A stretch of 64,000 nucleotides of DNA from Actinomycetes bacterium (lineage in GTDB: Bacteria; Actinomycetota; Thermoleophilia; Solirubrobacterales; 70-9): the NCBI GenBank assembly GCA_016861045.1, contig BOKP01000003.1, forward strand, positions 373,501 through 437,500, read 5' to 3'. The stretch's first letter is position 1, and each line of letters starts with the position of its first letter. This document shows positions 36,542-38,714 of this stretch, piece after piece. The translations under genes and the position numbers were made by a program. The notes below the pieces were generated by a model. The model worked only from the letters and a program-made list of their open reading frames with translations, was not told the origin of the DNA and made no database searches.

Positions 36542-37006
36542 ATGGAACGAGCAACGCGCAGAGGCAACTACGAGTCGGGCTCCGACTACGTCCTCGAGTA
36601 CGGGGAGCTCCGCTTCGCGTTCAACGAGGCCGACTTCTCCCAGCGGGTCGAGCAGGCGGCGGTGAAGCTCGGCTTCACGACGCCCGGGCTGGGGCCGGAG
36701 GAGCTCCACGACCTCGTCGAGCTCGCCGTCAACGGCGAGATCCGGGATTCGGCCTCGCCGCTCGGCGAGCACATCAACGCCAACTGGTTCGAGCTCGTCG
36801 GCGGCTCCCACAAGAGCCTCGTCCACTGGATCCGGCGGCTCGTCTTCCGCGGTGCCTGGCTCGATCAGCGGGTCAAGGAGGGCGAGCTCGACATCGTCTT
36901 CGACGAGCGCACCAACACGTTCGGCTACGTGCAGCCGGATCGCGACGGGGAGCCGATCGAGCTCTCGCGCGAGCCCTCCTGGCACGCCCTCGCCTACCGG
37001 CGCTGA
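36542..37006 (+). CDS. Hypothetical protein
   Basis: A 154-residue soluble, acidic protein that is not recognised. It has an alpha/beta look, with YVLEYGELRFAFNEADFSQRVEQAAVKLGF, a helical middle (LGPEELHDLVELAVNGEIRDSA) and WFELVGGSHKSLVHWIRRLVFRGAWLDQRVKEGELDI. No signal peptide or membrane helix is visible. Codon use matches its neighbours and no overlapping frame looks better, so it is probably real. Its 3' end overlaps the convergent NfeD-like gene by 13 bases. Confidence 0.7.
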   Translation: MERATRRGNYESGSDYVLEYGELRFAFNEADFSQRVEQAAVKLGFTTPGLGPEELHDLVELAVNGEIRDSASPLGEHINANWFELVGGSHKSLVHWIRRLVFRGAWLDQRVKEGELDIVFDERTNTFGYVQPDRDGEPIELSREPSWHALAYRR

Positions 37007-37338
37007 CCGCCCTCGCCGGGCACCGGCGGCTCGACCTCGAGCGTGAGCCCGCGAACCGCGACGACCCGGACCGTCTCCCCCACCCCGGCTCCGGCCTCGC
37101 ACTCCGCGTCCCAGATCTCGCCGCGGAGCTTGACGCGGCCGCGCGGGCCGCAGTCCTCGATCACCTCGCCGCGCTCGCCGACCATGCCCTCGCTTCCGGT
37201 CCGGACCCGGATCCGCCGCAGGTAGCGGTTCCAGAAGACCGCCTCGCCGACCTCGAGCAGCGCTCCGGCGACGAGCGCGATCGCGCCCAGTGGCGGGTCG
37301 AGGACCGCGAAGAGGACGAGCCCGACGACGAGCGCCAT
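36994..37338 (-). CDS. NfeD-like membrane/OB-fold protein
   Basis: A short NfeD-type protein of 114 residues: one hydrophobic hairpin (MALVVGLVLFAVLDPPLGAIALVAGALLEVG) and a C-terminal OB fold (GSEGMVGERGEVIEDCGPRGRVKLRGEIWDAE...GETVRVVAVRGLTLEVEP). NfeD proteins act with stomatin-like or SppA-type partners in membrane quality control; no such partner is adjacent. It is 11 bases past the rho-like stop on the same strand, at the end of a long block. Confidence 0.85.
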   Translation of the reverse strand: MALVVGLVLFAVLDPPLGAIALVAGALLEVGEAVFWNRYLRRIRVRTGSEGMVGERGEVIEDCGPRGRVKLRGEIWDAECEAGAGVGETVRVVAVRGLTLEVEPPVPGEGGQRR

Positions 37339-37349
37339 GTCTCGGGCCC

Positions 37350-38669
37350 TCAGCCGCGGATCGAGGCGAGGGCGGCGGCGTTGTCGGACGTGGCCTCGAT
37401 CAGGCGCCGCACCTCGGCCGCCGCGGCCTCGGCCCCGAGCCCGCCGATCTCCGCCCGCAGGCGCCGTGCGGCTTCGAGCTCGGCCGGCCCGCGCAGGTGC
37501 TCCTCCCCCGCGATCCGCGACGCGGCGAAGTCGATCGCGGGGTAGACGCCGCTGGAGGCAAGCCCGGGATCGAGGACGATCAGCACGTTCTCGGTGGTCT
37601 CCAGGCTGCGCTCGACGCCGCCCTCGTCCTCGCCGCCGTCGCCGAGGGTGGTCGCGATCACGGTCAGCGATCCGACGCCCTCCTCGGCGGTCTCCCGACC
37701 GGCGCCGAAGATCGGCTTCGCGCGGCCGGGATCGTCGGCGGCCACGGCGATCCGCGAGATCGAGTCGATCAGGAGCACGACGTCGCTTCCGGCCTCGGCG
37801 CGGCGGCTGGCGCGGCCGAGCGCGAGCTCGACCAGCCGCAGCTGCTCGCCGGATCGCATCTCGGCGGTGGCGACGGCGACGTCGGCCTCGGGGGCGGCCT
37901 CGCGCCACGCCTCGACCTCCTCGGGCCGCTCGTCGATCAACAGGACCACGAGCTCGGCACCGCTTGCGGCGAGGGAGCGGGCGAGCGCCCGCAGGAGCGT
38001 CGTCCGGCCCGACCCCGGCCGCGAATCGACGAGCACGCGCTGGCCGTAGGCGAGCGGGAGCAGCAGATCGATCGAGCGCAGGAGCAGGGCTTCGCCATCG
38101 CCCGCCTCCGGACCGGAGGAGAGGTCGATTCGGCGGCTCGGGTGGACCGGGGTCGCGACCGCGAGCCGCGGGCGCTCCTCGCCGGGGGCGACGCCGTTGA
38201 TCGTGTCGACGTGGATCAGGGCCGGGTAGCGCTCGCCGCGGCGCGGCCGCCGAGCCGGGCCGGCGACCTCGTCGCCGCGCTCCATCTCGCAGCGGCGGAT
38301 CTGCGACGGGGAGACGTAGACGTCCTCCTCGCCGGACTCGAGCCCGAAGCGGCGGATGAAGCCGTGCCCCCGCGGCGTGATGTCGAGCACTCCCGCCACC
38401 GGCTCGCCCTGCTCCTCTCCGGCCGGCTCCTCGCCGGCCTCAGGCTCGCCGCGACCGTCACCCCGCCGGCGACGCGAGCGGCGCCCGGGCCGCGGTCGGT
38501 CCGGCTCGCGCCCGCCGCCGGGGTCGATCCCGGCGGCGGCCTCGGGGTCGCGTTCGAGGATCGCCGCGATCAGCTCCGGGCGCGGGAGCAGGCGGAAGCG
38601 GTCGACGCCGAGCTCGGCCGCGCGCCGGTGAAGCGCCGAGATGTGCTCGCTGTCGAGGGCCGTGGCCAC
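37350..38669 (-). CDS. rho: Rho-type termination factor with altered P-loop
   Basis: A 439-residue Rho homologue. The Rho_N-like helical part is at residues 6-40, followed by an Arg/Glu/Gly-rich insert. The RNA-binding OB fold (VLDITPRGHGFIRRFGLESGEEDVYVSPSQI) spans about 92-160, and the RecA-like domain comes after. LIDERPEEVEAW and VVLLIDSISRIA are kept. The P-loop reads SRPGSGRTT, so Arg222 replaces the nucleotide-binding lysine of the usual PPKAGKT. The Q-loop segment (TGGVD type) is shortened to AADDPGRAKPIFGAGRET. It may be a divergent paralogue or a Rho adapted to Arg. The start is GTG 38669. Confidence 0.85.
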   Translation of the reverse strand: MATALDSEHISALHRRAAELGVDRFRLLPRPELIAAILERDPEAAAGIDPGGGREPDRPRPGRRSRRRRGDGRGEPEAGEEPAGEEQGEPVAGVLDITPRGHGFIRRFGLESGEEDVYVSPSQIRRCEMERGDEVAGPARRPRRGERYPALIHVDTINGVAPGEERPRLAVATPVHPSRRIDLSSGPEAGDGEALLLRSIDLLLPLAYGQRVLVDSRPGSGRTTLLRALARSLAASGAELVVLLIDERPEEVEAWREAAPEADVAVATAEMRSGEQLRLVELALGRASRRAEAGSDVVLLIDSISRIAVAADDPGRAKPIFGAGRETAEEGVGSLTVIATTLGDGGEDEGGVERSLETTENVLIVLDPGLASSGVYPAIDFAASRIAGEEHLRGPAELEAARRLRAEIGGLGAEAAAAEVRRLIEATSDNAAALASIRG

Positions 38670-38714
38670 GGGGCGGAGGATATAGCGCGGCGGGCGCCGG
38701 TCCGGCGGCCCGGG

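Follow-up and report, generated by a model that had tools for sequence, protein, structure and literature searches.

The Only Rho Homologue in an Order of Actinomycetota Appears to Have Lost Its Motor

Introduction

In PMC8828861, Rho figures as a motor powered by ATP whose catalytic residues are highly conserved, and roles are assigned to the Walker A lysine, the catalytic glutamate, the arginine valve, the arginine finger, and the Q- and R-loops from work on the Mycobacterium tuberculosis and Escherichia coli enzymes. The stretch of DNA analyzed here (64,000 nucleotides, henceforth the window) carries a rho-like gene whose product departs from this description at the ATP-binding loop, and the question that the locus raises is what such a protein can be: an unusual but working Rho, an inactive copy kept beside a true one, or something else. 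An earlier note, made from the sequence of the window, had put forward the first two possibilities, namely, a non-canonical Rho that works with arginine in place of the P-loop lysine, or an inactive paralogue that regulates or competes with a true Rho. Here, we compare the window protein with Rho from its own order, class, and phylum, and ask what its residues, genomic setting, and domain composition suggest about its role.

Results and Discussion

Fold and Motor Residues of the Window Protein

The features of the gene on which the analysis turns are as follows, with E. coli Rho as the numbering reference for the residue comparison.

37350–38669, minus strand: divergent, apparently motorless Rho homologue, 439 aa, GTG start.
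38532–38669, minus strand: N-terminal Rho_N-type helical domain, aa 1–46, with L13, H14, A17, R26, and L33 invariant in the order.
38406–38531, minus strand: charged Arg/Glu/Gly-rich linker, aa 47–88, recognized by composition and of low structural confidence (pLDDT ∼47–70).
38175–38405, minus strand: OB-fold primary RNA-binding domain, aa 89–165, with most RNA-contact residues kept.
37998–38024, minus strand: P-loop remnant SRPGSGRTT, aa 216–224, with Lys181 replaced by Gly219 and Lys184 by Arg222.
37905–37934, minus strand: D-E-R-P-E-E motif, aa 246–251, with catalytic Glu247 kept; Trp255 also falls in this stretch.
37764–37766, minus strand: Walker B Asp302, kept according to the residue alignment.
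37716–37745, minus strand: site of the Q-loop deletion, aa 309–318, with ∼17 residues gone according to the residue alignment.
37500–37556, minus strand: arginine-finger region, aa 372–390, with R353 replaced by Gly374 and R366 by Ala387.

Rho is the best NCBIfam family for this protein, at scores under the cut-offs of both models concerned: 225 bits against TIGR00767 (equivalog cut-off 509.45) and 228 bits against NF006886 (cut-off 315). Among Pfam models, Rho_RNA_bind is matched above its cut-off (86.6 bits at aa 91–162, cut-off 27), an ATP-synthase-type nucleotide-binding domain is found, and Rho_N is sub-threshold (15.4 bits, cut-off 24.9); the latter model is above cut-off in examples from three other families of the same order (f2, f3, and f4; the family of the window genome is f1) and from a short form of the protein discussed below. 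The predicted structure has a mean pLDDT of 90.8, all top Foldseek hits among the matches listed are Rho, and the best VIA-align match is M. tuberculosis Rho (7oqh_D, Z 43.1, 2.1 Å over 342 residues). As modeled, the window protein thus carries the Rho fold, including the RecA-like core. Its OB fold has equivalents of E. coli F64, R66, D78, Y80, E108, and Y110, and His at the position of F62.

The motor residues present a different picture. The earlier note had read both P-loop lysines as lost, and this is borne out (K181 corresponds to G219 and K184 to R222). It was also right that the Q-loop is altered, although “shortened” understates the change: a stretch of ∼17 residues between Walker B D302 and K318 is deleted outright, such that there is no equivalent of K283 or of the TGGVD motif. 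The remaining Rho blocks had been described as intact, which holds for the DERPEE motif with Glu247 and for the OB fold, but the R-loop lysine K326 is not Lys in this protein, and R353 and R366 are gone as well, losses that had been overlooked. The equivalents of E211, R212, and D265 (the catalytic Glu, the Arg valve, and the Walker B residue) are retained as E247, R248, and D302. As a control, all 24 rows of intact Rho from the same class have PPKAGKT with Lys at K184, a full Q-loop, and R366.

The earlier note had entertained a sequencing error at 38001–38021. Such an error in the P-loop, or a shift of frame there, is ruled out by the congener G002, which reads ARPGSGRTT, and by the family as a whole, 18 of whose 19 full-length members have Arg at the lysine site (the exception, G007, has Ala). 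Arg typical of a whole clade, which the earlier note had named as part of what would speak against its reading, is borne out for the family of the window genome, but this does not restore activity, as other parts of the motor are missing. Arg385, two positions N-terminal to the site of the finger, was considered as a replacement and rejected, being unconserved in the family.

We note two further observations on the surroundings of the gene. The sense strand upstream of the GTG start (window 38670–38690) reads GCTATATCCTCCGCCCC and has no obvious Shine–Dalgarno sequence, and with a −10-like TATAT near the start, the transcript might be leaderless. A minus-strand reading frame at approximately 36994–37340, which we take to be NfeD-like, starts just downstream of the rho-like stop codon, possibly in one operon with it.

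Order-Wide Loss of Motor Residues

The residue table comprises 46 divergent rows from the 56 matched relatives (19 from f1, 8 short forms also from f1, 7 from f2, 9 from f3, and 3 from f4), and the remaining 10 relatives were inspected separately. Outside the table, the rho homologue is split in G024, lies on two contigs in G027, and is apparently frame-shifted in G051; in the six of the 10 extra relatives with a readable Q-loop region, the Q-loop is, by eye, missing there too.

The Q-loop is deleted in all 46 rows, and K283 with it; none of the rows has K326 or R366 either, and D265 is retained in every one. Between these extremes, K184 is lost in 40 rows and E211 in 28, in complementary families. 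At the K184 position, f2 has Lys in 6 of its 7 rows; f1 has Arg with the single exception given above; f3 has Ala (5), Arg (2), Thr (1), or Val (1); f4 has Ala throughout (3/3); and the short forms have Cys (7) or Ala (1). E211 is almost confined to f1, in that 18 of its 19 full-length rows have it, and the 27 rows of f2, f3, f4, and the short forms are without it. One family therefore has the catalytic Glu without the P-loop Lys, and another has the Lys without the Glu. The pattern fits a history in which the Q-loop and the arginine finger would have been lost once, early, after which different catalytic residues would have been lost independently, as is to be expected if hydrolysis no longer mattered. 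Nucleotide binding could still be possible, given that f1 keeps E211, R212, and D265 and that f2 keeps the P-loop Lys in nearly all its members.

These data bear directly on the proposal of an active, non-canonical Rho ATPase and translocase with Arg222 in the role of the P-loop lysine. Such an enzyme would be in keeping with the retention of E247, R248, and D302 and with the near-uniform Arg of the family, but the RNA-gripping Q-loop, the R-loop Lys, R353, and the arginine finger are absent too, so that the claim that this Rho works with Arg finds no support; moreover, the loss of K283, K326, and R366 extends to the whole set, and in the sister families, either the lysine site is taken by Ala, Thr, Val, or Cys or the catalytic Glu is gone. 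We consider this proposal highly improbable. Instead, we infer from the residues a loss of motor function, such that the divergent Rho would neither hydrolyze ATP usefully nor translocate on RNA. Termination by Rho translocation would then be absent in the order, because the motor that drives it would do neither.

Copy Number and Descent

The other proposal, that of an inactive paralogue competing with or regulating a true Rho, agrees with the loss of active-site residues, and its first half, inactivity, is also what we read from the sequence. Its second half fails, as the second rho that it calls for was sought and not found. The assembly of the window genome, 97% complete at 2.70 Mb in 5 contigs, yields a single Rho match and two further matches that are weak and confined to the P-loop ATPase part, and among 61 genomes (the window genome and 60 relatives from the same genus, family, and order), none has a Rho above the family cut-off. 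A profile of the divergent sequences, by contrast, matches 56 of these 61 genomes, including all 46 with a completeness of 90% or more; the five genomes with no match to it are all <90% complete.

The genomic position of the gene is also that of normal rho in related families. In this class, intact rho is preceded by gene clusters 15, 14, and 16, sometimes 10, in the order 15-14-16, as in five of the six intact loci examined (G215 shows 14-16). We take these clusters to be a metallophosphoesterase (15), a cyclic-diphosphoglycerate-synthase-like protein (14), a 2-phosphoglycerate-kinase-like protein (16), and a transaldolase-like protein (10). The same 15-14-16 order precedes the divergent rho in the f3 loci G055 and G057 (G053 is without cluster 16), and the intact-rho order, in full or in part, precedes it in the f4 loci G042 and G045. 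The window and the other f1 and f2 loci have different upstream genes, among them one that is presumably glpD-like, with the transaldolase-like gene in some; the rho gene of G002 stands outside the gene-neighborhood clustering.

A phylogenetic tree was built from 60 of the 83 rows, leaving out 8 short, 3 f4, and 12 near-duplicate rows. In this tree, which includes Streptomyces and Acidimicrobiia, the divergent f1–f3 rows group together as a single clade (SH-aLRT 99). Its stem is long, at 0.85 changes per column, and it is located on the Actinomycetota side, beside and not inside the intact rows. Taking synteny and tree into account, the divergent gene is most likely a descendant of normal rho and not an extra copy, and the probability that we assign to the inactive paralogue is negligible.

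Rho in the Class and Phylum

Across the phylum, 132 of 149 sampled genomes have a Rho above cut-off. For the class, presumably Thermoleophilia, the corresponding figure is 32 of the 150 genomes sampled, all of them in families f6, f7, and f50. Neither the Rho model nor the divergent profile yielded a Rho in families f5, f8, f51, and f52 of the class sample, among the matches listed; their best matches (∼63–86 bits) cover the ATPase region only, like the weak extra matches of the window genome. The divergent-profile scan of the class gives 41 genomes without a match, as a count that is not itemized by name. Loss of Rho would thus seem tolerable, as other families of the class are without any Rho.

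We also note several observations from these scans in their own right. The class holds families with an intact Rho, with an apparently motorless Rho, and with no Rho, and so offers a comparison set for the effects of Rho loss on the genome. G123 and G220, both of family f6 and 97–98% complete, have no Rho match, although f6 otherwise has intact Rho. Elsewhere in the phylum, locus L213, the sole Rho match of G099 from another family, has no normal P-loop (GVTKGALVT), Ala for R212, His for the Walker B Asp, and a truncated C-terminus, and is possibly an independent loss of the motor, judging from these residues. Locus L223, the sole Rho match of G163, likewise from another family of the phylum, reads APPQAGTTT, with K181 replaced by Gln and K184 by Thr, and retains the Glu, the Q-loop, R353, and R366. 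Four genomes of the same phylum (G083, G109, G162, and G180; 7.5–9.7 Mb) have two Rho matches each, the second one shorter; a model for a “short form” Rho paralogue exists in NCBIfam.

One neighbor of the rho-like gene recurs at the divergent loci:

36542–37006, plus strand: P0003, a 154-aa protein of an unnamed family, with no Pfam or NCBIfam match above cut-off.

Its family adjoins the rho-like gene in convergent orientation in 33 of the 35 divergent loci examined, and it occurs in 102 of the 150 genomes of the class. A functional link between P0003 and the divergent rho was considered and rejected, because the family occurs both with a normal Rho (f7) and in the Rho-less families f8, f5, f51, and f52, and has no Pfam or NCBIfam name.

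Retention and Selection

A further alternative is decay, in which the order has lost Rho function and the gene is a remnant on its way to disappearing with no new role. Nei–Gojobori dN/dS values for 14 divergent pairs lie between 0.12 and 0.54, compared to 0.03–0.05 in six of seven normal Rho pairs and 0.24 in the seventh, all of these being rough values owing to high GC content and partial saturation. As the divergent values are several-fold above those of most intact pairs, constraint appears to be relaxed, which would fit decay, as would the additional truncation seen in three genera (g7, g8, and g11) and in f3, where it affects the C-terminal half, and the complete absence of Rho from families f5, f8, f51, and f52. 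Against this, however, all 46 near-complete relatives keep the homologue, dN/dS is <1 in 14 of 14 pairs, and there are positions that are invariant in all forms of the protein.

Some of these positions became fixed anew. C127 is invariant in all 35 full-length divergent rows, at a position where 34 of the 37 normal rows have Phe, and W255 is invariant in the 35 full-length rows (f1–f3) and the 8 short rows, where 35 of 37 normal rows have Met; R144 is a further case of a newly invariant residue that is foreign to normal Rho. In the N-terminal domain, the set L13-H14-A17-R26-L33 is found in 35/35 full-length, 7/8 short, and 3/3 f4 rows, the eighth short row, as extracted, being without this region. 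When the window protein is compared with that of its congener, conservation is highest in the OB fold (87% identity, dN/dS ∼0.15, lowest dN of the domains). Retention in the near-complete relatives, dN/dS below 1, and the newly invariant residues together suggest that the divergent rho is not simply decaying, and we regard decay as an unlikely explanation.

Domain Losses in Individual Genera

Genera g8 and g11 have a short form of ∼230–290 aa, with the N-terminal domain, an Arg-rich stretch, and a remnant of the RecA-like core, but without the OB fold; its predicted structure has a pLDDT of 64, and any RNA binding by it would have to rest on the Arg-rich stretch only. G008 (genus g7) shows a different loss, its gene encoding the N-terminal domain and OB fold only, as 169 codons followed by a stop within a 39.6 kb contig, in one draft assembly. 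Genus g10 has changes at some of the OB contacts (F64 and D78). As two genera and one genome have lost them, the OB fold and the ATPase domain would each be dispensable for whatever role has been retained, and this series of losses ties the shared role to the N-terminal domain: what is common to all forms would lie in, or depend on, that domain. The RG-rich linker was also considered as the seat of a common function and rejected, its composition differing widely between genera.

A Possible Role without Translocation

Taking these observations together, we put at roughly 0.68 the probability that the window gene is a direct descendant of rho without a working motor, kept as a motorless, ATP-independent RNA-binding factor. 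The OB fold would hold nascent or free RNA independently of ATP, the N-terminal Rho_N-type domain would be the part that cannot be spared, and the inactive RecA-like core would serve as a scaffold or as a surface for protein contacts. The divergent Rho may still sit on the complex of NusG, NusA, and RNA polymerase, a role on the elongation complex being possible in that NusG and NusA are both present, each over its cut-off. A precedent is provided by the E386A variant of M. tuberculosis Rho, for which PMC4499133 reports loss of hydrolysis and termination with oligomer and RNA binding kept (RNA Kd of 5.3 vs 3.5 nM). From this precedent, RNA binding should survive the death of the motor as long as the OB fold is intact, and it is on this expectation that we base the passive RNA-binding reading.

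More tentatively, the domain losses can be extended to the order as a whole, which would have swapped a motor Rho for a passive RNA-binding transcription factor, with the N-terminal domain as its core and the OB and RecA domains as exchangeable accessories. Such a passive Rho, no longer a translocase, would be a terminator, an anti-terminator, or an RNA guard, with RNA polymerase or nascent RNA as its target. This wider formulation is speculative, and we consider it possible, not probable.

A more active variant would have the divergent Rho end or modulate transcription without translocation, by locking RNA polymerase through an ATP-independent counterpart of the allosteric step in the E. coli model. 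The presence of NusG and NusA and the intact Rho fold of the predicted structure would suit such a role, and PMC9908020 reads E. coli Rho as allosterically changing RNA polymerase before ring closure. The same authors, however, also maintain that ring closure and translocation are required for release, and E386A, per PMC4499133, blocks termination in vitro; in addition, the short forms are without the OB fold and the g7 form is without the core. We find polymerase locking to be distinctly unlikely, less so than an Arg-driven motor but more so than decay.

Conclusions

Set beside Rho (E. coli; M. tuberculosis, PDB 7oqh; TIGR00767), the window protein shares the fold, the domain order of N-terminal domain, OB fold, and RecA-like core, the RNA-contact residues of the OB fold, and the Walker B Asp, along with the catalytic Glu and the Arg valve in its own family and, in sister families of the window genome, the gene order of normal rho. 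Unlike Rho, it is without the P-loop lysines, the Q-loop, the R-loop Lys, R353, and the arginine finger, reaches 225 bits where the cut-off is 509, and belongs to a clade on a long stem of 0.85 changes per column. On the evidence of its sequence, it would best be described as a homologue of Rho, in all likelihood the product of a rho orthologue, that lacks features by which a functional Rho is defined.

RHON1-type plant proteins offer a parallel, likened here by description only, as a Rho-type N-terminal domain in an RNA-binding protein without the Rho motor; they are also without the OB/RecA core of Rho. A closer likeness is to the ATPase-dead mutants of Rho (M. tuberculosis E386A and E. coli E211A), with which the window protein would share predicted RNA binding without hydrolysis (PMC4499133). 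Unlike these laboratory mutants, the divergent Rho is natural and order-wide, combines several losses, is retained by selection, and has no active Rho alongside it. An order with a motorless Rho was not found in the open literature searched, which did not cover Moreira et al. 2024 (doi 10.1093/nar/gkae582), where one may be described.

An order whose only Rho is, as it appears, motorless would be a natural experiment on the roles of Rho beyond translocation. It would bear on whether Rho can act on RNA polymerase in any way that needs no ATP, and on how a bacterium copes after losing termination by Rho.
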